Below, piece after piece: positions 41,638 to 60,746 of a stretch of DNA of 64,000 nucleotides. Numbering within the stretch: position 1 is the first letter of the stretch; every line of letters starts with the position of its first letter. The position numbers were made by a program, and so were the translations under genes. Below the pieces are notes generated by a model, which worked only from the letters and a program-made list of their open reading frames with translations, was not told the origin of the DNA and searched no databases. The stretch lies in the NCBI RefSeq assembly GCF_028867935.1, contig NZ_JAPQNS010000009.1:124001-188000 (forward strand), in the 5' to 3' direction. The stretch comes from Flavobacterium sp. SUN052 (GTDB lineage: Bacteria > Bacteroidota > Bacteroidia > Flavobacteriales > Flavobacteriaceae).

Positions 41638-43617
41638 TTACTGCCCCAACTTTATTGTTCCCCCTGGCTGAAGACGGAGTGTACCTTGTAAGGTCAGTTT
41701 TTTTACGACTACAGTATCTTCCAGAGAAACTACATGGCCGGTTGAGATTTGAACAGAACTTGCGGGGGTAAACATTCGCAAGAATTCCGTGGAAGTAAGA
41801 ACCCGATGCCAATCCCAAGTGGTAAACTTGTTCCAGTGGCCTGTCTGAACGCTAATCAACTGGCTAGTAGCCTGATCGGTTTGTGCTGGCGTATTGCCAA
41901 TTGAGCCAGAAGTAAGGTTTGCCACAGGATTGCTCCGTGGCGCAGGTGGAGCCTCAATGGGTACTTCCCAAAAACTGAATGCATTCAAGCCCCGAGTATT
42001 TTTGACAAAGGGCCCTGGAAAGGCATTGGCATAACCGGGTAGGGGCGTTCCTGTACCATTAACCAGCGGATAATTGGGCGGTAAATACCCTAGTTTTCGT
42101 TCCGATCGCGACCCGTTGAGGGTTAAAATCAACCGGTTACCTTCTGACCGACCTGAAACTACAGCACCTTCCTTTTTGTCAAGAAAAAGCCACTGAGTCA
42201 GTCGATGGGTTAGGGCCTTTCCAGTTGCATCGGCTACTGTTGTGTCTTTTGGCCAAACCAACTGCTGATCATCGTCAAACTGCACGACGATCTCGTTCTG
42301 GGCTGCCGTGCTGTAATACACTCTTCGCACATTGGGCGAGGTAATTTGGGTGGTATCCTTACCACCGTAAAAATCACGAGCTACGAGTCGGAATATCTCA
42401 GCCCCGGTTTGAAGATGGCCCGTAACGTCAAAATGCACTCCATCATATCCTCTTGTGCCAACCGTTGCATGAGTCTGAATAAACGGCAATAAACTACCGG
42501 CCCGGCGCTGATAGTCCCTGAAAACGGCTGTAGGTTCCAGGTTGCCACTCAGCAAATGAATTTGAAAGAGGTAAAACCGCCTGATTTCGGGATAATCAAG
42601 CCGGACGTTTTTGTACAGTTTCTCGAACTCGGCGGGCCAGGCGGGTGCATTTCCGTTTGTTTCGGTCTCGCCTTGCCTAAAGAAATACGCTTTTACTGCA
42701 CCGGTTAAACCCGCTTTTTTGATCCGATACAGCAGTCGCCCGTAGTTGGTAGAAAGATCAGCTGGATTAGCTGCATTGCGGTTGTTCAGGTATTCAATTC
42801 CAGACCCGCCAGACGCTCCATTAATAATGCAAATGGGAATTCCATATTGCTCTGCTATACGGCGGGCCATTTCCATCTCCCAGGTTCCCACTAGTGTAGA
42901 AGGCGACCTGTTTCCAACCGTCCAGAGCGTATCAGCGAGGTTATATGGGTCTTTATTATCATTATTCGCATATACACCAAACGTACGAATGTACTCACTT
43001 TGGTAGGTATAAGCTGGTGGAGGCAGATAAGCAGTAGCATTTGATTGGCCACCAATAACAAAAACATCTCCCGTCACAATATTTTGTCGGTCAGCCACCT
43101 GAACGGAATCTGTAGAGCCAGCCTGATGGACAAAAATCCGTATTCTAAACTCAGCCAGTTCGGCACGGATGTTTGCCGCTATAGAGAACGGGGCTGTACT
43201 GTCGGCATAGACAAGTGGTGCCTTACTATATTGATAAAGCGTAGCATTGCGAAAAACCTGTATGGATACTTTATCGAACCCCTTCAATAAAACCCGACCC
43301 TTTATCGGGATGGTTGCCATCGAATTGGCATTGCGAGGGTAAAGCTGGTTAGAGGCCGGTAGTTGCGAGAATCGAACCAACTGAACTTTTGAAAGAAGCA
43401 ACCGGCATAAACCTCGAAGCAAAGAAGGATTCCTGGAAAGAGTTGCTTGCAGGCTGGGGCTAAGCAAAGGACAACCCGGTGAACCAAGGGCAGATGAACC
43501 TGGGTCTGTCAGAACAAAACCTGTATTTGTACCACGTAACAAACTAGTTGGAACTTGCCCAACTGCCGAAAGACAGAGCAGGCACAAAAAGAGCTGTAAG
43601 GAAACCGTTTTGTACAT
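41638..43617 (-). CDS. Secreted SASA-type (SGNH) esterase with the shared C-terminal module
   Basis: A 659-aa secreted esterase of the sialate O-acetylesterase/CE6-like family. A signal peptide ends SAVGQ (about residue 21). The SGNH core is marked by VIGGQSNAT (nucleophile Ser, about residue 192), ASGGSGIE, RQGETETN and the closing DGVHFD (Asp and His). Sialic acid or acetylated plant sugars are possible substrates. A region of about 230 residues with beta-sandwich character follows. The last 68 residues (41641-41844) repeat the module seen at the end of the M43-like protease. Confidence 0.78.
   Translation of the reverse strand: MYKTVSLQLFLCLLCLSAVGQVPTSLLRGTNTGFVLTDPGSSALGSPGCPLLSPSLQATLSRNPSLLRGLCRLLLSKVQLVRFSQLPASNQLYPRNANSMATIPIKGRVLLKGFDKVSIQVFRNATLYQYSKAPLVYADSTAPFSIAANIRAELAEFRIRIFVHQAGSTDSVQVADRQNIVTGDVFVIGGQSNATAYLPPPAYTYQSEYIRTFGVYANNDNKDPYNLADTLWTVGNRSPSTLVGTWEMEMARRIAEQYGIPICIINGASGGSGIEYLNNRNAANPADLSTNYGRLLYRIKKAGLTGAVKAYFFRQGETETNGNAPAWPAEFEKLYKNVRLDYPEIRRFYLFQIHLLSGNLEPTAVFRDYQRRAGSLLPFIQTHATVGTRGYDGVHFDVTGHLQTGAEIFRLVARDFYGGKDTTQITSPNVRRVYYSTAAQNEIVVQFDDDQQLVWPKDTTVADATGKALTHRLTQWLFLDKKEGAVVSGRSEGNRLILTLNGSRSERKLGYLPPNYPLVNGTGTPLPGYANAFPGPFVKNTRGLNAFSFWEVPIEAPPAPRSNPVANLTSGSIGNTPAQTDQATSQLISVQTGHWNKFTTWDWHRVLTSTEFLRMFTPASSVQISTGHVVSLEDTVVVKKLTLQGTLRLQPGGTIKLGQ
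41641..41844 (-). other. Shared C-terminal module, copy 2 (end of SASA esterase)
   Basis: The last residues begin TGHWNKFTTWDWHRV, run through STGHVVSLEDTVVVKKLTL and end GGTIKLGQ. It matches the copies at 34710-34892 and 54549-54734 in the GxW...TTW...R...HxVxL...LG pattern, with a longer insert after the arginine. Confidence 0.55.
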
Positions 43618-47345: not shown

Positions 47346-47765
47346 ACGAATTGATTTAATGACCTAAAATTAGTCGTTTTTACCCGGCGTAGGGTAGTTA
47401 CGTGCCATTAAAAAGGGAAGTTTCTTTATCATCGTATCAACGTTAGGCAATTCGATTCCCCACCTTTTAAAAAGCAACTCGGTTACGCATTATTGACTCT
47501 TTGCAGCTTGAGGACGTGCTCTGGTTAGGGGTTTATTTTCACATTTTTTGTTCTGTTAGAAAAATTTTTTCCAGCCAGCCCTTTTGGACCACAAAATTTT
47601 TTTCAAGATGAAAAACCCCCATAGAATCATATATTGGCCGATAATTACGATAACTCTCCTCCTAAATGAGCAGTTAACCACTCATAATTGAGGGGAGTAT
47701 ATAGTTGAGAGAAAAAAATATTTACATATCGTGATTACATTTTGATACCCCAAAACGACTAATAC
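47346..47765. promoter_or_regulatory. Long divergent region between dnaE and the sigma-factor gene
   Basis: A 420-nt AT-rich stretch with no coding evidence. It must hold the promoters of dnaE (minus) and of the sigma gene (plus). An extended dyad lies at 47653-47698. The 12-mer AAAACGACTAAT appears at 47752-47763, 3 nt before the sigma start, and in inverse orientation at 47369-47380, about 24 nt from the dnaE start. No TAnnTTTG box is clear. No other structure was recognised. Confidence 0.6.
47653..47698. promoter_or_regulatory. 46-bp dyad upstream of the sigma-factor gene
   Basis: The centre is GTTAAC (47673-47678). ATGAG (47666-47670) and CTCAT (47681-47685) are in inverse positions, and ACTCTCCTC (47653-47661) is mirrored by a GAGGGGAGT stretch (47690-47698) with one mismatch. 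No gene ends here, so it is an operator or a leader hairpin rather than a terminator. Confidence 0.5.
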
Positions 47766-48389
47766 ATGTCAGGCATAAAGCGGGCATTGAATAGCTTGAC
47801 AGATACCGACCTGTTAGCCGGTATTAGAACTGGCAAAGACATTGAACGGGCCATGCGATTTGTTTATCAATCGTACTACCGGATGCTAGAGAACTACGTC
47901 CTGACCAACAGCGGGACTCAGGACGATGCTGCCGATTTGATTCAAGAGGTGATGGTGACGTTTATTGAAATGGTTCAGAAAGAACGGTTCCGAGGTGAAT
48001 CAAGTGTGAAATCATTTCTGTATACATTAATCAAGAATCTTTGGATTAGTGAGTTGAGGAAACGTGAGAATGAAATGAAGCGGAATGAAGAGTTCGAAAC
48101 GGGCAGGGATACGCTTGAGGAAGATATTTCTCAGTTTATGACCTACAAGGAAGCTCAAAAAGCGATCATGGCCTTGTTCGATTCTCTGGGGTCTGGTTGT
48201 AAGCAGGTATTGACTCTGTTTTATTACGAGAACCTGTCAGTGAAGGAGATTGTGGAACGAACTGGTTATGAGAATGAACAGACCGTTCGGAATCGTAAGT
48301 ACAAGTGTTTGAAAGAATTGACAGATTTGGTTCAATCCTCTCCAACTGCCTTTAACAATATAAAAGCTGCTTTACGGCATGCGAAATGA
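47766..48389 (+). CDS. Sigma-70 family (ECF-like) RNA polymerase sigma factor
   Basis: A 207-aa sigma factor with regions 2 and 4 only. Region 2 covers about residues 35-100 (YYRMLENYVLTNSGTQDDAA, then DLIQEVMVTF). Region 4 covers about 140-190 (LTLFYYENLSVKEIVERTGY, then ENEQTVRNRKYKCLKEL). It lacks the sigma 1 and 3 regions, as in ECF factors. The next gene, a membrane protein, overlaps it by 11 nt, the usual place for an anti-sigma factor. The regulon is unknown. Confidence 0.88.
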   Translation: MSGIKRALNSLTDTDLLAGIRTGKDIERAMRFVYQSYYRMLENYVLTNSGTQDDAADLIQEVMVTFIEMVQKERFRGESSVKSFLYTLIKNLWISELRKRENEMKRNEEFETGRDTLEEDISQFMTYKEAQKAIMALFDSLGSGCKQVLTLFYYENLSVKEIVERTGYENEQTVRNRKYKCLKELTDLVQSSPTAFNNIKAALRHAK

Positions 48390-49185
48390 AATGGAAACGC
48401 TTGAACAGATTGACCGGTATCTCGACCGCACCTTAACGCTCGATGAGGCAGTTGGACTGGAGCAGAACCTTCAGACCGATGCTGAGCTACAAAGTCTGTT
48501 CGAAAGAGTCACGGTAGTACGAGACGCTGTTCGTTCAAGTGCATTGCGTAGTCGGGTTAGAAACCTGCACATGCAACTTATTGAAGAGATTAAACAGCAA
48601 GACGAAGCTGCTAACGATAAGCCAGATTACACAAAAGTTCGGCCATTGCGTTACGCTCAGTCATTGCGGTGGGGTGCACGGGTTGCGGCCAGCGGCTTAC
48701 TTCTCCTGGCTGGGTATGGTAGCTACAAGTACGGTAGTACTAACATCGACTCGTATTACAGTGACAAGTTTATGGCATATCAGTTGCCTAACAATAGGGG
48801 TGAAGCCGAGGAAGTTCTTACCTCGCTCGACGCACTCTATCGGTCAGGAAACTTTGCTGGTGTTGTTCAACGGTTTGCCGGTCTTTCAGCGCCTACTGCG
48901 CACGACCAGTTTCTAACTGGTATGGCACACATGCAACAACAGCAATATAAAGAGGCTATCGATCGATTCACTGCTTTACGACTAAGCAACGAACTGAAGA
49001 GCGAGACACTCTTTGAACAAGAGACAGATTATTATTTAGCATTGGCGTTTTTAGGAAGTGGCCGCGTTGGCGATGCCTATCCTTTGTTTGAGAAGATCAA
49101 CAAAACGCCCCGGCACATGTACCACCAGAACGTAACAGACGAGGATCTGTGGAAACTGGGACTACTGCGCTGGAAAAGCAACTAA
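48379..49185 (+). CDS. Single-pass membrane protein with TPR-like C-terminus, candidate anti-sigma factor
   Basis: A 268-aa protein overlapping the sigma gene by 11 nt. The N-terminal part (about residues 1-90) is charged and helical (IDRYLDRTLTLDEAVGLEQN), like the cytoplasmic part of anti-sigma factors, but has no zinc HxxxCxxC motif. One membrane segment is at about 99-116 (ARVAASGLLLLAGYGSYK). The outer part resembles TPR helices (LTGMAHMQQQQYKEAIDRFT, YYLALAFLGSGRVGDAYPLF). Role as anti-sigma is inferred from position and topology. Its terminator lies within the next, convergent gene. Confidence 0.68.
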   Translation: MRNEMETLEQIDRYLDRTLTLDEAVGLEQNLQTDAELQSLFERVTVVRDAVRSSALRSRVRNLHMQLIEEIKQQDEAANDKPDYTKVRPLRYAQSLRWGARVAASGLLLLAGYGSYKYGSTNIDSYYSDKFMAYQLPNNRGEAEEVLTSLDALYRSGNFAGVVQRFAGLSAPTAHDQFLTGMAHMQQQQYKEAIDRFTALRLSNELKSETLFEQETDYYLALAFLGSGRVGDAYPLFEKINKTPRHMYHQNVTDEDLWKLGLLRWKSN

Positions 49186-49229
49186 AGTTCTTTTAGAGTT
49201 TATCATATGGGTTAGGTAGTTAGGAAAGG

Positions 49230-49258
49230 TCACTGTACGATTACGGTGATTTTTTTTT
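49230..49258 (+). terminator. Terminator of the sigma/membrane-TPR operon, inside the CHAT gene end
   Basis: TCACTGTA (49230-49237) pairs with TACGGTGA (49242-49249), with one G-U pair and a 4-nt loop, and is followed by nine T (49250-49258). The same bases encode the last residues and stop of the opposite CHAT gene. Confidence 0.7.
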
Positions 49259-52028
49259 GCCCAAATTTTTGCCAAACTACCCAAATCAGGAGACCAATGC
49301 CCACAAAACCACCCACGATCCAGGGCCAGACCACTGGGTTGCTTTCTGATGGCGAACCCACAAACACCAGATTCGACCAGTATTGCGGAGAGTGAAACTG
49401 GGCGTACTGGCCATTATGAAGTAAATCTAATTTTGCCAGTTGTAAAGAGCGGGCAATAGAGTTGCCTTCGTCGAGGTGTGTATAAAATTGCCGGCTAAGA
49501 TAAGCAGTCGTGTTGTCTTCGGCTTTCCACAGTGAGGTTATCAGGTTTGAGCAACCCGCGTACGACAACGCTCTTGATAAACTCATAACGCCCTCACCGC
49601 GAACTAGTTGCCCACTGGAGGTCTCGCAGGCGCTCAAAAAGATTAGCTTTACCTGGCCTAGAATTCCGTATTGAAGTTCGTGTGCATAGAGCTTGTCCTC
49701 GTTATTTTGTTGAGGAGCGAAAGCAATATATGACTGAGCTGGTACTTCGTTGTTAGCAATGGCGTGAGTAGCCAGATGGATGATTGAGGCTTGACCAGCT
49801 AATTGAAGGAAACGCCCTTTTGTAGCATCTGTATTGGTGAGTTTCACTCCTTTCAGATAATTCACTTCTTCCTCCGAAGCGGGTAATTTCCCTAATAAAC
49901 CATCCAGCCCTTTAATATTAAAAGGAGCCACGGCCAGCACCTGCTCTGGCAGTAATATTGGCTTACTTTCGGGGCGTAAAAAAGAAGCGGAGTATTGATA
50001 GGTTATGTCGAACCGTTCGAGCAGGTAACGTTGCTGATCATCTTCGAGGGCGTCGAACGAAAGCTGTGTCAGTTCATTATGAGGGATGATAATGAGCGAT
50101 GTGTAATCAGACAGATAGTTTTCCAGCGGTTTAATTAGCCGACTGTATAAAAATTGCGCCTGCCGATCAGCCGGATAGCGCGATCCCGCAGATGCTGTTC
50201 GCAAGGCATCAACTAAAATGGCCAGTTGTTTATGGAAAAGAGAATCGTTGGGTGTTTTATGATATTGTAGTCCCTTGCGGGTTAGAACAAAAGTGTAGGT
50301 TGTGGCATCAGTTTGAAAAAAAGAGAGCAGGGCTGTTTTGCTATTCAGCACGTTTTGACGCAGAAAATGAATGTCAATTGTATCGGCTCCGAATTTTTTG
50401 CGGTAATACTCTGGATAGTCGTGCAAACGGTCGGCCATGCGCGAGAGCGCCAGTTTTGCATCACGAACGTCGTTACGCAACCGCGCTATCTCAGCATCGG
50501 AAGTTGCCTTGTCAATACGTCTAAATAACTGAGAGAGAGTAAATTTAAGGTTACGCTCTTGTTGCAGTAACGAATCGGGTATACCCGTATTGGCCTTACT
50601 CTCGTTTTCTTTCCGACCAATATAGAGTACAGCCGCTTTGCTCTGTTCGCTTTGTCGGAAGGCTTCTTCCAGGTAAGATTCCCGTTGCGTTTGTTCATAC
50701 AGGCGGATCAGCAGTGCTACAGCTCGTTGTTGGACAGGCAGTATTTTTTTTAGAGCAAACAACCGAGACTCTTCGTTGTCGAACACTTTCTCGATGTGAC
50801 CGGCCAGTGCAAGGGCTGATCTATAGGTATTCGCTGCTTTTTGTACATCCGTTTCACTGGCTTTTTGCGTCAACATCTGCTCCAGGCAGTTTGCTTTGGC
50901 TGCTATTGTTTCAAATAACAGAAAGCTGTTGAAGCCTTCAATAAATTGAGAAGGGTTGCGACCAACGGCGGTCTCGTTAAACTCGTGATCTAACTGAATT
51001 ATGCCTTGTTGGTAAAATTGGAGCGCTTTAGGGTATTGTTTCTGTTCTACCGCAACATCGCCTAATAGCTTATATGTCAGACCAGCGTTTTTATTCTTTT
51101 TGAATGACCGGTTAGTCGAGCCCCGCTGTTTGTATAAAGAAAGTGCCTGTTCTAAATGCTCGACTGCTAAACTAAACTGACGTTGTTGGATGTAAGCGCG
51201 GGCAAGGGAATTTTCATAAATCAGAGCGTAAGTACTGTCAGGCTTTTTTATTTGTTGTAAATATTGCAGTGCCCGCTTGGGGTCATTTTTTTCGAGATAG
51301 GTAGCTCCAAGATTAATAAGAAGTTCCTGGCGGTTTGTATTCATGAGCAACAGCTTTTCGTACAGCGCTGCTGCTGAATCGAACTGCTCTAAATGGCGAA
51401 GTGCCGATGCAATATTGCTTGTATACTGACTGAAAAAAAATTGGCTGTCTTTAGCCTTAGGTTGATTGAGTTGTAGGGCTTTTTGGAAATAATTGATACT
51501 CTGCTGGTAATTGCCCGCTTCATAATAAATTACTCCAAATGAGTTGTAAAGGCGTTGAGCATCATCAAGTTGTGGATAACGCAAATAAATTTGCTCTGCT
51601 TTCTTATAATAGTAAGTGGACGAGTCAAACGATTGAAGCCGATAATAGGAAGTACCTGCGTATAGGTATGGTTTGAAAAGTAACGAATCCGACAGTTGAA
51701 ATTGCCGACCTATAGAAATGGCTTTCTGGTAAAAGCGTAATGCCGGAATCTGTTTGCTGTGAATTTGAGTTAAAATTCCTGCATTCAAATAGCTAGTAAA
51801 TAATGTATTCGCATTTAGCTTATTGGGAGATAGTTGTTTTATGACTTTTTGGAAATACAATAAAGCCAAACTGTCTGATTGGTCGCTAGGATTAGCTTTG
51901 CTGAATTGACGTAGCGCTTGCTCGTATAAACGTAAAACGGCAGGTTGTTCTGTTCCAGATTGGGCATATACTAGAAGCCTGCTCCAGCAGTAAATCACTA
52001 CTAAAAAAGTAAACAATTGCCTTTTCAT
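49230..52028 (-). CDS. CHAT-domain protease with TPR repeats
   Basis: A 932-aa protein. The ATG at 52028 (MKRQLFTFLVVIYC) gives a signal-type N-terminus. About 400 residues of TPR-like helical repeats follow (for example AGNYQQSINYFQKALQLNQP). A helical linker leads to a CHAT peptidase domain (about residues 560-890) with the catalytic pair His755 in HLATHA and Cys801 in FLSACETSSG. One membrane helix lies near the end (about 899-921). So the protease would face the periplasm, anchored by its end. CHAT proteins are caspase-like; its substrate is unknown. It converges with the sigma operon. Confidence 0.88.
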   Translation of the reverse strand: MKRQLFTFLVVIYCWSRLLVYAQSGTEQPAVLRLYEQALRQFSKANPSDQSDSLALLYFQKVIKQLSPNKLNANTLFTSYLNAGILTQIHSKQIPALRFYQKAISIGRQFQLSDSLLFKPYLYAGTSYYRLQSFDSSTYYYKKAEQIYLRYPQLDDAQRLYNSFGVIYYEAGNYQQSINYFQKALQLNQPKAKDSQFFFSQYTSNIASALRHLEQFDSAAALYEKLLLMNTNRQELLINLGATYLEKNDPKRALQYLQQIKKPDSTYALIYENSLARAYIQQRQFSLAVEHLEQALSLYKQRGSTNRSFKKNKNAGLTYKLLGDVAVEQKQYPKALQFYQQGIIQLDHEFNETAVGRNPSQFIEGFNSFLLFETIAAKANCLEQMLTQKASETDVQKAANTYRSALALAGHIEKVFDNEESRLFALKKILPVQQRAVALLIRLYEQTQRESYLEEAFRQSEQSKAAVLYIGRKENESKANTGIPDSLLQQERNLKFTLSQLFRRIDKATSDAEIARLRNDVRDAKLALSRMADRLHDYPEYYRKKFGADTIDIHFLRQNVLNSKTALLSFFQTDATTYTFVLTRKGLQYHKTPNDSLFHKQLAILVDALRTASAGSRYPADRQAQFLYSRLIKPLENYLSDYTSLIIIPHNELTQLSFDALEDDQQRYLLERFDITYQYSASFLRPESKPILLPEQVLAVAPFNIKGLDGLLGKLPASEEEVNYLKGVKLTNTDATKGRFLQLAGQASIIHLATHAIANNEVPAQSYIAFAPQQNNEDKLYAHELQYGILGQVKLIFLSACETSSGQLVRGEGVMSLSRALSYAGCSNLITSLWKAEDNTTAYLSRQFYTHLDEGNSIARSLQLAKLDLLHNGQYAQFHSPQYWSNLVFVGSPSESNPVVWPWIVGGFVGIGLLIWVVWQKFGQKKITVIVQ

Positions 52029-52113
52029 ATCTTTGGGTTGTTTACAAAGATATGAAAAGACAATCGTCAAACCTTACTCAACTGGGAGTATACAGCTGTG
52101 AATGTACTGTTTA

Positions 52114-53031
52114 TCAGTCACCTACGATAATAATATCTGGTGGACGTGGCGTGCTGCTTGCGCTTGAAGAAGCGTCAGTGACACTCATGGCAGCACCTAC
52201 CGTTGGGGTTGCAGTTGCCTTCCGGAAGGTAGCTGAACTTTTGTAATTGGCCTGACTCAAAAGGCTCGATGGTACTGCGCTCGCGCGGCTATAGTAGTGA
52301 AGCCGTACGTCGATGTAATTGAGCGCCTTATTGCTGGCATCATTCAATCTGTAGTAAAGCCGAAAGTTGCGAACAGTGCCGTCAACCGGTTTATCACCAA
52401 ATACGCCGTTTTCTACCGCTTGGCGCAGGTTTATGGTACCCATTTGCCCATCAATTTGTAAACCTTTTGGTTTTTTTTGCTGAGTATTTGCGCTTACTAA
52501 AGCGGCAACTGTTTTGTCATTTTCGTTACCAAATTCGCTACCAATAACCTTGTTTTCGACGCCAAAAGGGGCTGCCAGATTGTTCTGAACGTTGTACAAC
52601 GGCTTAGCGAATATGTCGCCTGAAGCCAGATTATAGACTCGGCTCTGGAAGTTGATCCCGGCAATGGTCACTTCGCTTAGTGAGGTTTCAGACGATCCTG
52701 TTGGCTTGAACCAAACCTGATATGTCAAACCTGACTCACTCTTATTAACGTCGATGGCACCTGTGGTTGGATTGATAACCAAACCCTTAGGAGTGGCTCC
52801 GTAGGTGCCCGACTGATTTTTCTGGGGTGATTCGATGTAAGCTTCAGCTTGTTCCCGATAATAGAAGACGGGGCTAGAGTACCGTAAGGTACCGGCTGCT
52901 GATGAATTCCCGATGGTAGATACCGTTGCGGGAGTGACGTCGACACCTGGTTCGGTGTCATTCTGACAGCTACTTAGTGAAAATAACACCAAGATAGTCA
53001 GTGCTGAAAGAGGAAATGAAAGAGATTGCAT
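52114..53031 (-). CDS. Lipoprotein of unknown function, upstream of the CHAT protease
   Basis: A 305-aa lipoprotein. The ATG at 53031 (MQSLSFPLSALTIL) is chosen over an in-frame TTG at 53067, and gives the lipobox SLSSC (about residue 22). Two similar motifs, PKGLVINPTTGAIDV (about 92-106) and PKGLQIDGQMGTINL (about 197-211), look like cadherin-/He_PIG-type beta modules. A Ser/Ala-rich stretch precedes the C-terminus RPPDIIIVGD. It lies 85 nt upstream of the CHAT gene on the same strand. A role as CHAT substrate or receptor is only a hypothesis. Confidence 0.65.
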   Translation of the reverse strand: MQSLSFPLSALTILVLFSLSSCQNDTEPGVDVTPATVSTIGNSSAAGTLRYSSPVFYYREQAEAYIESPQKNQSGTYGATPKGLVINPTTGAIDVNKSESGLTYQVWFKPTGSSETSLSEVTIAGINFQSRVYNLASGDIFAKPLYNVQNNLAAPFGVENKVIGSEFGNENDKTVAALVSANTQQKKPKGLQIDGQMGTINLRQAVENGVFGDKPVDGTVRNFRLYYRLNDASNKALNYIDVRLHYYSRASAVPSSLLSQANYKSSATFRKATATPTVGAAMSVTDASSSASSTPRPPDIIIVGD

Positions 53032-53149
53032 GGCTGTGTTTTTCTCTTTGTCGATTCTGACAATCAAAATGTAATCAGCGAGAGAAAATATTTTCTCTAC
53101 GCTTTGTCAGAACCGACTACACAGCCGGGTAACTTGCTGATAGTGAGAC

Positions 53150-53353
53150 CTAAGCTTGGCCCACTGTTCCGCGTATGTCGGTTAAAAAGGCATCAACGTC
53201 TATATGTTCGTTTAATAATACGCGAGTATTGAAGATTTCCCAGAACAATTCGTCGGAGAGTTGATAGTCTTTTTGAAGGCGGATCATATCTCGAATACTT
53301 TCTTTTAACTGGAGGTTGCCCGTTGGTTGATTGGATGAATACATTGGTTGCAT
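53150..53353 (-). CDS. Small protein at the head of the CHAT cluster
   Basis: A 67-aa protein that starts MQPMYSSNQPTGNLQLKESI and is helical over most of its length (SDELFWEIFNTRVLLNEHID). It has no signal peptide or membrane segment. Its gene is first in line with the lipoprotein and CHAT genes, 118 nt before the former. I do not recognise the family. It may start at Met4 instead. Confidence 0.5.
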   Translation of the reverse strand: MQPMYSSNQPTGNLQLKESIRDMIRLQKDYQLSDELFWEIFNTRVLLNEHIDVDAFLTDIRGTVGQA

Positions 53354-54545: not shown

Positions 54546-57500
54546 CTAAAAGCCAAGTTTCAAACGTGTTGCTGGAGAGGCTAACCGAAGTTTAGCTTTC
54601 GAACGATTCGTTACCTTCTTGGCATTGCCAACAGTTGACAGGGTTACGGTATGATTCTGATCAAGCACAACCTGATCGGTTGTCAGCGGAAGCCGCTCCT
54701 GATCCCAGGTTGTGGGGTCTTCCCAATCTCCCGTCCGTATACTGGTGATAATGTTGCTGTTAACGTCATCATTTCGAATAACCGTCGTGACAGATGCCGG
54801 TGTTCCTACTAGGTAATCACCCCCATCGCTGATCGTAATAATAACCGTTTCGTCTGGTTCGAAAAGCGCATCGCTGATGGGATCGATCTGCAGAACAGCC
54901 GTTGTGGCCCCCGCCGGAATCATGATGGTGCCCCCCGAACCATTGACCGTAGCCGATAGCGGCTGACTGGAGGCCGCACTATACGACGTCACGTAATCGA
55001 GGCCATACCGGGCTGTTCCGGCCACGCTAAAGTTCACGATAACATTGTTGGGAGCTGGTTGTGGTAGTCGGAAAGTCACGTTCATTGTCCCGGCAGCATC
55101 CTCGTTGAGCGGGCTGTTAGCAATGGACACTGACAACACGTTGTTGCCGGTTGGCACCGTTGGATTGCCCACTGAAAAACGCCATGTATCAGCCGTAAGC
55201 CTTCCGTTGCCATAATAATCAGGCACGTTAGTAAGGGTTACACTGATCACATCGCCCGCTATGGGAGACAAGCTACTCAGCGGCACCAACACAATCTGAT
55301 TATTAAAACAACCCAGCTGCATGGGCACCGAAGCTCCGTTGGAAATACGCTTTGCGGAAACATTCGCATTCGTTAGGCGGGCGCAACCCAATGGTTCATT
55401 GTAGGTTATGCCGATCACGCTGCCCGGCACATAGATGTCATTGCTGGGGTCGGGCGTGCCGAAGGTTAACGGAGCGGTGCGGTCAATAATGCCCTCTGCA
55501 CCAGCCGAATAAACAACTCCAGTGCCGCCACCACCCAGCGCACACGTCAGTTTGAGACGGAGTTTGTAGGCTCCATCGGGCAAACTGGTCGTGTTGAATG
55601 TGGCAGGTGTTCCGTTAACACTATTGTTAAGTTGCGCAGAAAACATTGCAAAAGCAGTGGCCCAACTGTTCGTGCCTAGTGGTGTATATTCCAGCGCAAC
55701 ATTCGTCAGGTTATTCACCGTATATCCGCTAATGATTACAGGTAGCTGGTTATTATCGGCTCGGGCAACAACCCAGTTGGGTTCGGGCGAGGTGAGCGTT
55801 ACCGAACTACAGGGGTTCTGGAAAAACGCCGACAGACTCACTGTTTTGACAATCTGACCGGTGCAGGCATCCGTTAGCTGAAACTGTAACCCCTCATAGG
55901 CGAATACAGTAGAGGCTGGGCTTTTACTAATCCGTACCGTGACAACCGTTTCGGCCGCCAGGCGAACCAGCGTATAGGTCAATGGCGAAATATAGGGGCT
56001 GCCATTGATCGAGACCAGGGCTGCGTCGGGATTGCTGCCCGGCACCAGCGACAGCAGAAACGTGCGGTCGTTATCGGTGGTGACCTGGCTGACATTACCT
56101 AACCGCAGTGTAAACTGGGCCTCCGTACCGTTCGGAACATTGCTGACAACGGTTACGGGCGCACTAAACTGGATGGCATCGCGGGGCTGGGTATTGTCTT
56201 CGGGCGGGCAACTCGACTTACCACCCAGGAGCGTAAACACGGGGGTGCCATAAGCCGGATCTGCTTTCAAATCGACCGAAAACCGATCGCCCACATCACC
56301 ATCATTCAACACAAATCCGGTTGTGATCTGCTTGGTTGTCGTATTGGTTTCGCTCTCGCCGGATTCCATTTTGAAGTTGTAGGAAAAACCACCGTTAACC
56401 CCCGAACCGGCCGTTTCGAATCCTAAAGCAATCGCAACGTTTACATCAATATCCATCGAAAACTCAATTGTATTGGAGCTCGTTACCGATTTGGATTTCG
56501 ATTGTCTGATTTCGCCAACGCCCCCATCGAACGAAATATTCGACAGAAACTCAGCCTTCTTTTTGTTCTCGTCGTTGTTGGCCAGCACCTGCTCCCACAC
56601 CGATATTTGGTTGGCATAGCGGGCTTTGTCGGCCTCAACTGTTGCTAGACTTCGCAAGTCTTTCAGGTTGGGAATCACTGAATTACGGATTTCGTATTCA
56701 GTGTAATAGTACTGCGTGGCCACGCCCTTATTAGCAACCACCAGCTCACGGGTCGACGCAATGGAACAGCTAACGGGGTCGAAACTGATAACCGTCGAGA
56801 TGGCGTACCACATGTTCAGGGCCGCTCCCACAAACACATCGGATAGGGCACCTGGGTTGACGGGATCGCTCGATGTAGAAATATACCTCTCGGTTGACGT
56901 AGTCAGGATGGCTTCGCTGGCAGAACTATTCCGTTTGCTTACCGTTACATCGCCACCAATGGTACCCCACACTTCGTTCTCCACAGAAAGGCCAATACCG
57001 GTCTGGAATTTTGTGCCGATTTTTACTTCGAGCCAGGCTTTTTCGGCGTTGGTACTGGCCGCAAAGAATCGCATAGCACGCTCCTGGCTGTTGTTTTCCT
57101 GCCAGAAACTGTAGCTGCCATCACCTGGGGGATCGTGTAGGACGAGGAAGGGTATTTGAGGAGAAACGGTTTCGAAGGTAGCGGTACCGGCTTTCACACC
57201 CGTCACTACAATTGAATTATTGAGCGGAGAGGCTGACCGTCCGTAAATATCCGTGTACTGTACATTTAGGCTACGCTGATAAGGGGCAATAATGTTGGGC
57301 TCACCGGGTGTAAGTGTCAGACTTACAATGCCGTTTCTGACGGGCGTGCGAATGTCTTCGCCCGTGTCTTGCCGAACGTTAGTCGATACGAGCACTGTGC
57401 CGCTGTTAACCGGACAACCCTTGCCAATGGGCCCCTGATAAACGGTAACCGAAAAAGATGTTGGTACTCCTTGTTGAACAAGCCCGAATGGCGTGAGTGT

Positions 57501-60500
57501 AGTACAACCAGGAGGAGTTGGCAGGCCCGTAAGTAGTAGGGTTGGCGGCCGTTGATAGACCAGGTTGAGCCGGGTAACGGCGGTAGTACTGGTGAGATCA
57601 CGAATGAGCGAGTCGGGTGTTAACGTCGCCATTTTACTAAAAAATGCCACAAGGTCTGTGCTGACAACGCTACCATTGCCTGGAGTTGACGTGAAGCTGA
57701 CCACACTAACTTGGTATTTGCGGGCAGGCAAAGCAATGGAATAATCACCAGCCGTGGTTGTGGTAACCCGTTTCACAAAACACGAGGTACGGCCATCAGA
57801 CAGTATGTCCCTGAATTCCAAAGTCGCTGAGCCAATCGGGTCGGAGCAGCCCGCCGTCAGTCGCCCGGTGATGGTGCGCGAGGTAGGGCTGGTGAAGTTC
57901 AGATTGGGTACATCGCCAGTAAGAGCCAGCGCCTGCGAAGGTTCGGTAAAAATGTAGTTTCTATAGCTAGGGGTAACGGTATAAGACCCTGGATTGAGCA
58001 CAACCAATCCATAGCGGCCATATACTCCGTCGATGTTACCGCTTTTGGTGGCACTATTGTAGTTGCCGCCAATCACCCGGACATCAACGGAATCGATCGG
58101 GCAGGTCTTATATCCTATCTGTGGGGTTTGCCCCGACATACCGGTGACACAATCAGGGCAGCTTTGGTAAATAGTCCCATTAATGGCATAGGTTGTCAGG
58201 TCAGTGATATTTTGCAGAGTAAGCTCATTGTTGTATTCATTCATCGTAACGGTCAGGCTCGCCGGGTTGAATGAATGGCCGGCTCGGCTTGGCGTAACAA
58301 CAAACGATGACGCCGTGACGGATGCCGGTGTGGTACCACTCCTAAATCCCCAGTAAACGGGGGCAATGTCGTAAATGCCACCCGCTCGGGTCACGGTAGA
58401 ATAAGTGTAATTGTCGGGGCTACCAGCCAGGCCGTTGGTTATTCGCCGGACCGAAATTGTAACGCCTTCTACGCCTGTATTACCATCGCTACTAATTACT
58501 TTACCGCTGATTTTGCCAGTAACGCGCACCACTTTCACCGAGATCGTTGGCGTGTAAGCTGGAGGAATCTGAGTACATCCATTTTGAGCGACACGTCGAA
58601 TCTGGAATGTCTTCACTTCAACGTCGCCAGTGGTCAGAGCAGGCAGGTTAATACTCTGGGCATTCGAGTTCGGAATATTCGTCCAGTTGGTGCCGTCTTC
58701 ACTTTGCTGCCATGTCAGTGATAAGCTGTAACCGGCCGTGGCTGCGGCCGTGGATGCCAGAACAGCCGTACCTTCCTGTGGCGCGGGAACAATGGCTGGA
58801 CCGCTAATGCTCCCGGCGCTAACAGCGGTGTTGGCCGACACAAACGTAATGGTATTGGTATAATACGAGGTGCCATTGCAGTCGAGGGCTACGCGCCGGA
58901 ATATGACAGATTGAGATCCGTTCAAGGTGGCCGTCGTAGCTAATGTGACTCCGGTTTGATCGGGAATGCTGTAAAAGGTTCCACCGCCGTTTGTACTGGT
59001 CTGCCAGGTGTAACCCCGATACGAGAACCCATCATTCTGACTCCGTAACATAGGAATGGTAGTTCCAGGGCAAATTGTGATGGTACCTGAGCCGAATGAG
59101 GTAACAATTGCACCGGCAGAGACGGCGGGTGGAACGGATTGGTATTCAACCGCGCCAAGGTCGGCGGTGCCACCCACAAAGCGGATGTTGCCCAACAGAT
59201 CACTATTCCCTATGGTATTGTCAGTAGCACTGCTGTTGCTACCATTCAGTACGGGTGGACAGGAAAACGTAGCCAGGGTAGTGGTGTTGCTAAACGGCAT
59301 GGTAGCGGTAGTGATATTGCCCGTACCGGTAAAGCCTGTAATTGCATTTTCCAGCAGACTGGATGTAACAGTTATGGTTGACTGGGGCGAATCTTCATTC
59401 ACCAGCGTGTTACTACCACTATTGCCATAAATGATGGAATTGGTGAACTGAACACGGGATTTTAAGCCAACAAATAAGACACCACCCTGGTAGGTACTGG
59501 TTCCCGAGCGGTTCGGGTTACCGTAGAAGCTGCAATTTTGAAAGGATGGCTGAGCGAACGTCGTGGCGAAACTTAACGTATAGATAACCCCTCCGTAGTC
59601 ACCCGCGAAGTTTCGGGTAAAACCACAATTGACAAAAACTGGTGAAGCGGTCAGAAGATACAAAGCACCCCCAACCTTGCTGGAATTTGAGTCAAAGAAG
59701 CAACGGGTAAATGTGGAAACGGTAGCATCACCCACGCCATTTAAGTGTAAGGCACCGCCCTGCCCCGAAATATTGACTGTGCTGTTGTTAAGAAACTTGC
59801 AGTCAGCCATGTACAACTGGTTACGCCCCTGATTAACAGCATTGTCGGCGTTCGCATCCGTTTTTCCGTTGAACACGGCTCCGCCCCGGTAATTGGCTAC
59901 GTTATTGCTGAATGTAGAGTTATAGACATTGATGGCTGCTAAGCCACCAGCATTGGCGAAATTTACCAGAGCTCCGCCTACTCCCGCTGCGTAGCCATTG
60001 GTAAACAGGCAATTACGCAGATTCAAATAACTGACTTGGTTGGCTGGCGCAGCATTTACGACGCACCCCCCGTAACTATCATTGCCTGTTCCATCGGCTG
60101 CTCCGCCACCGACCACAAACCCATCGAAGCCAGTACCCGACACCAGGGCAACAACGTTACGAATTACGTGGTAGCTGTTGTCGGCCCGCGAGCTGGGATC
60201 ACCCAGTTCTCCCGACAGGGTTGTGCTGCTGGGGAAAGTAGTGGGCCGTTGACTCAGCTGGGTTTCGGTTCCTGCAAAGCCGCCGAAGACGACTACCCCA
60301 CTTTTGGGACTGAAGCTCAGGCTTCGGTTGGTGCTGGCGGGGCCCCCTGGCTTGTATAGGCCTGAAGCCACCCAAACAAAATCATTGGGGGCGCTGGCGT
60401 TGATAGCTGCCTGCAAATCAGCCGTGGCATTGGCCCAACTCGTAGCTGTAACGGCATTGGAATTGATGCCATCCACTTTCACATAGCGTATGGTCTGCGC

Positions 60501-60623
60501 TGATACAGAACCACAAAAGGCTAGTATCAGCACAAATGCATTGGCAAAGGTCCGAAAGGCAAACGGCGGGGCCGAATGACTGGGCTTTTTAAAAAGAGTG
60601 TTCAGGTAAAAAGAGTGTTCCAT
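54546..60623 (-). CDS. Giant secreted surface protein (beta-helix, Ig-like, Calx-beta, shared C-terminal module)
   Basis: A 2025-aa secreted protein. I chose ATG 60623 (MEHSFYLNTLF), which leads into the hydrophobic FVLILAFCGSVSAQ at about residues 30-43. A right-handed beta-helix follows (about 45-480), with chlamydial-PMP-like repeats such as GGALVNFANAGG and GGAVFNGKTD. Ig- and carboxypeptidase-regulatory-like domains (KISGKVISSDGNTGVEGVTI, about 704) come next. A Ser/Thr-rich segment of alternating polarity lies at about 1260-1475. A Calx-beta domain (about 1828-1955) and the shared C-terminal module (last about 62 residues) end it. Adhesin or enzyme; not known. Confidence 0.8.
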   Translation of the reverse strand: MEHSFYLNTLFKKPSHSAPPFAFRTFANAFVLILAFCGSVSAQTIRYVKVDGINSNAVTATSWANATADLQAAINASAPNDFVWVASGLYKPGGPASTNRSLSFSPKSGVVVFGGFAGTETQLSQRPTTFPSSTTLSGELGDPSSRADNSYHVIRNVVALVSGTGFDGFVVGGGAADGTGNDSYGGCVVNAAPANQVSYLNLRNCLFTNGYAAGVGGALVNFANAGGLAAINVYNSTFSNNVANYRGGAVFNGKTDANADNAVNQGRNQLYMADCKFLNNSTVNISGQGGALHLNGVGDATVSTFTRCFFDSNSSKVGGALYLLTASPVFVNCGFTRNFAGDYGGVIYTLSFATTFAQPSFQNCSFYGNPNRSGTSTYQGGVLFVGLKSRVQFTNSIIYGNSGSNTLVNEDSPQSTITVTSSLLENAITGFTGTGNITTATMPFSNTTTLATFSCPPVLNGSNSSATDNTIGNSDLLGNIRFVGGTADLGAVEYQSVPPAVSAGAIVTSFGSGTITICPGTTIPMLRSQNDGFSYRGYTWQTSTNGGGTFYSIPDQTGVTLATTATLNGSQSVIFRRVALDCNGTSYYTNTITFVSANTAVSAGSISGPAIVPAPQEGTAVLASTAAATAGYSLSLTWQQSEDGTNWTNIPNSNAQSINLPALTTGDVEVKTFQIRRVAQNGCTQIPPAYTPTISVKVVRVTGKISGKVISSDGNTGVEGVTISVRRITNGLAGSPDNYTYSTVTRAGGIYDIAPVYWGFRSGTTPASVTASSFVVTPSRAGHSFNPASLTVTMNEYNNELTLQNITDLTTYAINGTIYQSCPDCVTGMSGQTPQIGYKTCPIDSVDVRVIGGNYNSATKSGNIDGVYGRYGLVVLNPGSYTVTPSYRNYIFTEPSQALALTGDVPNLNFTSPTSRTITGRLTAGCSDPIGSATLEFRDILSDGRTSCFVKRVTTTTAGDYSIALPARKYQVSVVSFTSTPGNGSVVSTDLVAFFSKMATLTPDSLIRDLTSTTAVTRLNLVYQRPPTLLLTGLPTPPGCTTLTPFGLVQQGVPTSFSVTVYQGPIGKGCPVNSGTVLVSTNVRQDTGEDIRTPVRNGIVSLTLTPGEPNIIAPYQRSLNVQYTDIYGRSASPLNNSIVVTGVKAGTATFETVSPQIPFLVLHDPPGDGSYSFWQENNSQERAMRFFAASTNAEKAWLEVKIGTKFQTGIGLSVENEVWGTIGGDVTVSKRNSSASEAILTTSTERYISTSSDPVNPGALSDVFVGAALNMWYAISTVISFDPVSCSIASTRELVVANKGVATQYYYTEYEIRNSVIPNLKDLRSLATVEADKARYANQISVWEQVLANNDENKKKAEFLSNISFDGGVGEIRQSKSKSVTSSNTIEFSMDIDVNVAIALGFETAGSGVNGGFSYNFKMESGESETNTTTKQITTGFVLNDGDVGDRFSVDLKADPAYGTPVFTLLGGKSSCPPEDNTQPRDAIQFSAPVTVVSNVPNGTEAQFTLRLGNVSQVTTDNDRTFLLSLVPGSNPDAALVSINGSPYISPLTYTLVRLAAETVVTVRISKSPASTVFAYEGLQFQLTDACTGQIVKTVSLSAFFQNPCSSVTLTSPEPNWVVARADNNQLPVIISGYTVNNLTNVALEYTPLGTNSWATAFAMFSAQLNNSVNGTPATFNTTSLPDGAYKLRLKLTCALGGGGTGVVYSAGAEGIIDRTAPLTFGTPDPSNDIYVPGSVIGITYNEPLGCARLTNANVSAKRISNGASVPMQLGCFNNQIVLVPLSSLSPIAGDVISVTLTNVPDYYGNGRLTADTWRFSVGNPTVPTGNNVLSVSIANSPLNEDAAGTMNVTFRLPQPAPNNVIVNFSVAGTARYGLDYVTSYSAASSQPLSATVNGSGGTIMIPAGATTAVLQIDPISDALFEPDETVIITISDGGDYLVGTPASVTTVIRNDDVNSNIITSIRTGDWEDPTTWDQERLPLTTDQVVLDQNHTVTLSTVGNAKKVTNRSKAKLRLASPATRLKLGF
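54549..54734 (-). other. Shared C-terminal module, copy 3 (end of giant protein)
   Basis: It begins TGDWEDPTTWDQERLPL, runs through DQVVLDQNHTVTL and ends TRLKLGF. It matches the copies at 34710-34892 and 41641-41844 and is the best-fitting of the three to the GxWxDPTTW-xxRxP-D-V-HTVTL-LxLG pattern. Confidence 0.6.
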
Positions 60624-60746
60624 TTGGATGAGGTTTTCAAAGTAAATCCGTCGAATTAGTCGGCAAAAAACACAGTGAGGCATTGCTGGATGGAGACGCT
60701 ATGGATTAAGGCAATAACTAGCCGGTTGGGGGAGGACGAAAAAAAG

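Follow-up and report, generated by a model that had tools for sequence, protein, structure and literature searches.

A putative self-amplifying envelope switch in which a separase-like CHAT protease would cut a membrane anti-sigma factor

Introduction

Protease-controlled sigma factors are central to envelope stress. In the RseA/DegS/RseP pathway of regulated proteolysis, a single-pass anti-sigma factor receives its first cut outside the membrane from DegS; to our knowledge, few of the site-1 proteases of Bacteroidota have been identified. Here, we analyze a 64,000-nucleotide stretch of Flavobacterium sp. SUN052 (assembly GCF_028867935.1, contig NZ_JAPQNS010000009.1, positions 124,001 to 188,000, forward strand; hereafter the window) and, within it, a locus at 47,346 to 53,353 that encodes a sigma factor, a candidate membrane anti-sigma factor with a tetratricopeptide repeat (TPR) region (asf), a TPR-CHAT protein predicted to be a protease, and a lipoprotein. 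We consider it probable that these genes make up a self-amplifying envelope switch, in which the separase-like CHAT protein cuts asf to free the sigma factor. Separase, to which this protein appears to be related, is the enzyme that parts human chromosomes.

Two further systems lie close to this one; statements on them, as on other published work below, draw on excerpts of the cited articles. Craspase, a type III-E CRISPR system, comprises the TPR-CHAT protein Csx29, Csx30, and CASP-sigma (PMC10028731, PMC9729208, PMC11106740), and Csx29 cuts a sigma inhibitor (PMC10028731). In the DdvS/DdvA system of Myxococcus xanthus (PMC4374960; PDB 8rot and 8rw5, by title), the extracytoplasmic function (ECF) sigma factor DdvS is needed for its own promoter (PMC4374960), and DdvA, judging from the PDB title and from alignments, combines a transmembrane anti-sigma factor and a TPR-CHAT-like part in one chain. 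A structure match indicates that the TPR-CHAT fold is common to Csx29 and the window CHAT; unlike DdvA, asf and CHAT are separate open reading frames (ORFs) in the window and in the scored loci. An earlier note on this DNA knew of no description of the arrangement. Coupling of a TPR-CHAT protein to an anti-sigma factor is known, from Craspase and, in fused form, from DdvA, but these were the only two systems for which our searches of the open-licence literature turned up a gene set of sigma, TPR anti-sigma, and CHAT, and no split, membrane-bound version with a residue code was found there.

Results

The proposed protease and its proposed substrate are encoded by convergent genes, with the following features in window coordinates.

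47766..48389, plus strand: ECF-like sigma factor gene, 207 aa, with PF04542 and TIGR02937 matches
48379..49185, plus strand: asf, candidate anti-sigma factor gene with TPR region; alternative start at 48391
48664..48720, plus strand: predicted membrane span of asf, residues 96-114, from hydropathy
48796..48801, plus strand: predicted CHAT cleavage site between R140 and G141 of asf, in the linker between membrane span and TPRs
49230..52028, minus strand: predicted TPR-CHAT protease gene, ATG 52028, stop 49230, 932 aa; the ORF is open from TTG 52070
49764..49766, minus strand: His755 of CHAT, predicted catalytic, invariant in 106 alignment rows and in 31 diverse rows
49626..49628, minus strand: Cys801 of CHAT, predicted catalytic, invariant in the same 106 and 31 rows
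49866..49868, minus strand: E721 of CHAT, proposed S1-pocket acid, in helix 718-723 of the AlphaFold2 (AF2) model
49515..49517, minus strand: D838 of CHAT, proposed S1-pocket acid, at the start of AF2 helix 838-853, 37 residues past Cys801
49257..49328, minus strand: C-terminal membrane helix of CHAT, about residues 901-924 (AF2 helix 901-931)

The CHAT protein matches PF12770 with 178.1 bits (cut-off 24). Its AF2 model, built from 106 alignment rows (mean predicted local distance difference test score, pLDDT, 87.9), runs from a signal-like helix (residues 2-22) through a long helical TPR part and the CHAT domain to a C-terminal membrane helix (901-931), and a hydrophobic C-terminal stretch was seen by eye in 26 of 26 CHATs. 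The best PDB match to this model is Csx29; separase and DdvA also match. On the strength of sequence and model, we take CHAT to be a His-Cys dyad enzyme of the caspase-hemoglobinase fold and a predicted protease, which appears to be anchored in the inner membrane with its body outside the cytoplasm. The earlier note's picture of a membrane-anchored CHAT-TPR protein convergent on asf was thus borne out, as was Cys801 as the catalytic Cys, with His755 as its invariant partner. Its placement of both sets of TPRs on the outer side also agrees with our results, from the signal-like helix and membrane anchor of CHAT and from the hydropathy of asf.

By hydropathy alone, asf has a single hydrophobic span at about residues 96-114 followed by the TPRs, from which we infer that its N-terminal ~90 aa lie inside and its TPR region outside. 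Its partner was correctly called a sigma factor in the earlier note, with PF04542 at 47.3 bits (cut-off 24) and TIGR02937 at 76 bits (cut-off 42.9); the Bacteroidetes ECF subfamily model TIGR02985 reached 79.7 bits, below its cut-off of 126.4. The overlap then described between the two genes holds (11 nt) if asf starts at its first ATG and disappears if ATG 48391, the start used in loci L042 and L043, is the true one. The N-terminal 60-100 residues of asf recur beside sigma genes, joined to other C-terminal parts, at six of six loci looked at, as expected of an anti-sigma domain, and we regard asf as a candidate membrane anti-sigma factor of the adjoining sigma factor. The sigma-adjacent proteins with the asf N-terminus and a different remainder (L055, L062, L067, L068, L069, and L019) are, by sequence, candidates for a wider anti-sigma family.

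Four of the five genes grouped together in the earlier note, for sigma factor, asf, CHAT, and lipoprotein, are a conserved module. We compared 43 neighborhoods, namely the window, L042, L043, and 40 further loci chosen by asf, and a sigma relative adjoins asf in all of them. Within the orthologue clade (27 loci of clear orthologs, window included), CHAT is present in 26 loci and the lipoprotein in 23, and the four-gene order, a sigma-asf pair converging on a lipoprotein-CHAT pair, is kept in 23. The four incomplete loci are L042, whose contig ends inside CHAT, L102, without CHAT, and L105 and L106, without a lipoprotein match. In the nearest named relatives, L042 from a Rudanella metagenome-assembled genome (MAG) and L043 from one of Cytophagales, dnaE, sigma, asf, and the convergent CHAT are all retained; L043 retains the lipoprotein too. 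The fifth gene did not co-occur: phmmer matched the 67-aa ORF (window 53150-53353) only to itself in the 43 loci, and because it has no relative there we rejected it as a module member; it may be a lineage-specific gene or no gene. Neither this ORF nor the lipoprotein matched a family in Pfam or NCBIfam.

Linkage was also counted from CHAT. In family f36, asf lies within about 1.5 kb on the same contig at 33 of the 40 best CHAT places (E-values up to 4.9e-98; positions compared by hand). The lipoprotein is on the contig at all of the other seven, some of which are cut by contig ends; in G790, of the same family, the sigma-asf pair is on a different contig from CHAT. Sigma and asf were both found in 24 of the 27 lower-scoring CHAT loci fetched in f36. 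Class-wide, among the 60 best previously unused CHAT loci (to E 3.9e-118, with the short-frame G371, G381, and G483 skipped), 42 had an asf above 60 bits. Six arbitrary control stretches gave no asf, no CHAT, and one weak sigma match. Near CHAT, sigma nearly always accompanies asf, sometimes on one strand and sometimes convergently. Hence, CHAT genes of this class usually adjoin an asf. A long open frame in G134 had hinted at asf and CHAT fused in one chain; this was rejected, as the two are separate ORFs there.

We then considered the residues that might join the two proteins. Between span and TPRs, asf carries an Arg (R140 in the window) in 27 of 27 members of the orthologue clade and 21 of 21 database homologs, always followed by a small residue or Asp, and in other lineages the aligned residue is Met. 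A rule linking Arg to D838 of CHAT was noticed in a discovery set and written down before the first fresh set (the 60 loci above) was analyzed, and a rule for E721 was written down before a second fresh set of 12 loci picked by hand, six with a scoring asf. Set aside were L134 (CHAT cut by the contig end), L176 (contig end), and the fresh loci without a scoring asf (18/60 and 6/12). In the first fresh set, Arg occurred with D838 in 23 of 23 loci, Met without D838 in 15 of 17, and Lys with D838 in one of two; in the second, Arg occurred with both acids in four of five loci and Met with neither in the only one. Counted as loci and not as events, with a discovery set rich in close orthologs, both acids stand beside Arg in 64 of 66 cases (38/38 discovery, 22/23 fresh, and 4/5 second fresh), whereas beside Met E721 is found in 1 of 39 (0/21, 1/17, and 0/1) and D838 in 4 of 39 (2/21, 2/17, and 0/1). 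Beside Lys, both acids are present in one of two loci.

Rankings over whole alignments single out the same positions. Among 764 alignable CHAT columns, E721 and D838 come first and second by class separation in the discovery and first fresh sets. Among 217 asf columns, the site column best separates acidic from non-acidic CHATs (1.86 of 2; next 1.16), and within the acidic class it also ranks first among asf columns for conservation. L265, whose site is doubtful, was left out of the asf column ranking and of the tree described below and was counted in the acid tallies. The model places E721 within helix 718-723 and D838 at the opening of helix 838-853, after the strand that follows Cys801; the acids of clan CD enzymes with P1 Arg sit on helix alpha1 and on loop L5 or the following helix (PMC4357240, PMC4626109). 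We propose, from secondary structure, that E721 and D838 occupy the places of these S1 acids, and from its position and class pattern we claim that D838 lines the predicted S1 pocket. The TPR-CHAT of Scalindua Craspase cuts after Leu and does not have the Arg-binding Asp of separase (PMC9729208), and in our alignment it has no acid at the position of D838. Its cutting after Leu without either acid agrees with the pocket reading.

Several observations weigh against a code of this kind. First, the Arg/Met label needs just two changes on a tree of 99 CHATs, which gives only two independent contrasts and, on this test, no significance, and co-inherited lineage differences could mimic covariation. 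Second, there are exceptions to the code (L287, L292, and L312) and to D838 in particular (L175, L178, L247, and L265), and Arg or Lys stands at the site in three of six asf proteins without a CHAT seen nearby (L120, L131, and L133). Third, 18 of the 60 class-wide CHAT loci are without an asf over 60 bits, and many CHATs without a seen asf also carry equivalents of E721 and D838, so that the acids alone do not mark pairing. Fourth, D2151 of separase aligns four residues past D838 (residue numbers from PMC9729208), and conservation of the site in asf could reflect a need in folding the first TPR helix. Finally, asf reaches anti-sigma models only below cut-off (RseA_N at 16.6 bits against 24; zf-HC2, in one relative, at 15 bits against 22.2), and the same is true of TPR models. 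Cleavage of asf by CHAT between R140 and G141 is, in our judgment, strengthened and not proven.

Some of these points would suit a different explanation: the Arg/Met position may serve the structure or sorting of asf, E721 and D838 may mark lineages, and CHAT may have another periplasmic protein as its substrate. The two changes on the tree and the three Arg or Lys proteins without a nearby CHAT speak for it. We nonetheless hold it to be unlikely, as the top-ranked CHAT columns are acids at the places used by clan CD enzymes for P1 Arg and the top-ranked asf column is Arg/Met itself.

Further CHAT genes were noted in passing. At least two additional CHAT-TPR genes are present in this genome, at L248 (G000:C1:1333000-1348000) and at G000:C37:255607-258312; the one at L248, on C1, adjoins its own sigma and asf and belongs to the Met class. 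On the short contig of L251 (G705:C44:1-10905), four consecutive CHAT genes or fragments share one strand, and there is no asf.

The regulatory side of the proposed switch involves the lipoprotein gene and two promoter-like sites.

52114..53031, minus strand: lipoprotein gene, ATG 53031, stop 52114, 305 aa, lipobox Cys22
52117..52146, minus strand: lipoprotein C-terminal tail RPPDIIIVGD
47733..47763, plus strand: promoter-like site GATTACA-N18-ACTAAT upstream of sigma
53046..53076, minus strand: promoter-like site upstream of the lipoprotein-CHAT pair, with an exact 15-mer in common with the sigma site

The lipoprotein gene directly precedes CHAT on the minus strand, upstream of it as the earlier note had said, and the pair converges on sigma-asf. 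Allowing up to two mismatches, the shared 15-mer TGATTACATTTTGAT has only two places in the window, one upstream of the sigma gene and one upstream of the lipoprotein gene; two matches in such a scan were reached in 4 of 100 shuffles. Across the genome, GATTACATTTTG-N11-CGACTAA with up to three mismatches has four sites, the two of the module with 0 and 1 mismatch and the remaining two with 2 and 3, and a reversed control gives three sites. We fitted a promoter matrix, from hand-chosen seeds, to the sigma upstreams of the 27 loci. It exceeds the 99th percentile of 1380 background windows in 25 of these 27 training sequences, in 17 of 23 lipoprotein upstreams, and in none of 26 CHAT upstreams, which lie inside the lipoprotein-CHAT operon. 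The 27 loci (507 kb) contain 48 sites scoring 17 or more: 24 at sigma, 9 at the lipoprotein, 12 in the asf-CHAT stretch, and 3 elsewhere. A consensus scan of 17 genomes with at most one mismatch gave 32 matches, 16 of them at the module, including all eight without mismatch; outside the module there was no excess that would suggest a wider regulon, a control pattern also giving 16 matches, in a scan blind to target promoters that are weaker or differ from the consensus. Thus, it seems to be a self-contained circuit with positive feedback.

A promoter-like site lies between asf and CHAT in 11 loci. Seven loci (L107, L108, L109, L110, L111, L118, and L121) have such a site together with a DUF4382-like lipoprotein gene, a likeness for which Pfam was run on L108 and L110; in L108 and L111, the stretch also carries a further, small lipoprotein-like gene.

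Much of this pattern could arise if CHAT and the lipoprotein were outputs only, handling damage or attackers, with sigma released by another protease or signal; linkage would then reflect regulation, not substrate choice. The 45 of 48 strong sites at sigma, the lipoprotein, or the asf-CHAT stretch fit this idea, as do the 0- and 1-mismatch sites of the genome, both at the module, and the seven DUF4382-like lipoproteins among the 11 loci with an asf-CHAT site. We doubt it all the same, since it leaves the match between anti-sigma site and protease pocket unexplained.

The lipoprotein itself is, in its AF2 model, beta-rich, with a disordered stretch at 271-292 and a C-terminal strand, and its Foldseek matches are weak and Ig/cadherin-like (TM-score, a structural similarity measure, about 0.2). 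After a linker of variable length, its tail has RPP and a hydrophobic run in 36 of 36 homologs, and RPP or RPA in 23 of 23 loci. Modeled alone, the tail forms a strand (299-303; pLDDT of the last block, 91). A structural role is the plain reading of so confident a strand, which suggests that the tail packs on its own protein, and for the same reason the idea that it binds CHAT as a free ligand is retained here as no more than a bold reading. That an Arg-Pro tail should lie next to a protease predicted to be Arg-specific is a striking coincidence. Export of lipoproteins to the surface is signaled by C-X-K-(D/E)2-X or Q-A-(D/E)2 after the Cys (PMC5080379). The window lipoprotein reads C-QNDTE after the lipobox Cys, a partial resemblance, and automatic picks, with a few wrong Cys among them, have K at +3 in 29 of 57 and D/E at +4 in 22 of 57.

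Reading the neighbors of the module by eye gave dnaE, an SMP-30-like protein, and an adhesin-like protein. On either side of the region is a large minus-strand ORF (window 41638-43617 and 54546-60683), the one esterase-like and the other a 2045-aa adhesin-like protein, also by eye. The two have similar final segments of ~70 residues (TGxW...TTWD...KLG), which may be a common C-terminal sorting part. Family and genus relatives of the genome (G000) gave only weak matches besides itself; the genus g1 kin (2.4-6.5 Mb) hold only weak asf relatives, whereas Rudanella and other Cytophagales supply the nearest sequences. The group assigned to this genome may be wrong.

Discussion

We favor the following model of the switch. 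The cytoplasmic part of asf would hold sigma at the inner membrane, and TPR-CHAT would be anchored there as well, its body facing the periplasm and its S1 pocket (E721 and D838) suited to Arg. On a signal, CHAT would cut asf on the C-terminal side of R140, in the linker from the span to the TPR domain, and the stump might then be cut by a site-2 protease to free sigma, by analogy with the RseA pathway. The freed sigma factor would transcribe its own operon and the lipoprotein-CHAT operon through the promoter motif that they share. In related bacteria, the same asf position is Met, and the proposed protease pocket mostly lacks the acids. The lipoprotein could be an output or a sensor of envelope state. 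The core of the earlier note, that CHAT cuts the TPR anti-sigma factor on the outer side, gains support from linkage, predicted topology, the Csx29 and DdvA matches, and the correspondence of Arg/Met with the pocket, all of it drawn from sequence and models; its 67-aa gene drops out, and activation of the protease by the lipoprotein, also suggested there, is conjectural.

A bolder version, which we put forward as speculative and rather improbable, is that Bacteroidota have a large class of periplasmic separase-like CHATs that cut TPR anti-sigma factors, with an Arg/Met specificity that switches together with the substrate. Within the clade of the window, the lipoprotein tail RPPDIIIVG, in which a cut-resistant Pro comes after the Arg, would act as a securin-like pseudosubstrate or trafficking sentinel that restrains the protease until lipoprotein export fails. 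That the module is instead a chromosomal relative of Craspase-type immunity, reporting phage or foreign nucleic acid, has the structural match to Csx29 and a similar circuit logic behind it but is very improbable, given signal-like and membrane helices that put CHAT outside the cytoplasm, a PADLOC defense-system search that returned just one weak TPR match (E 0.0051), neighbors that by eye are dnaE, SMP-30-like, and adhesin-like, and no Cas7-11 noticed by eye among the ORFs of 43-58 kb.

If the proposed switch is real, CHAT proteins of many genomes of the class, now named only by their domain, could be assigned a substrate, the residue after which they cut, and a code for their pocket, and the pairing of TPR-CHAT with a sigma inhibitor in type III-E CRISPR and the fusion in DdvA would look like parts of a wider signaling theme. 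Systems of this kind are known in outline from Craspase and DdvA. Csx29 is the partner of an RNA-guided effector, whereas the window CHAT is predicted to be secreted and membrane-anchored. The Craspase cut site is not conserved, lying between L and D, M and K, or A and S in three orthologs, whereas the module site is Arg or Met by lineage. Like RseA, whose pathway is also named in PMC10028731, asf is single-pass with a first cut proposed outside the membrane; where the RseA system has DegS, a CHAT cysteine protease is proposed for site 1. Compared with separase and other clan CD enzymes with P1 Arg (PMC4626109, PMC4357240), the module CHAT is bacterial and predicted to be periplasmic, and it has TPRs and a C-terminal membrane anchor.

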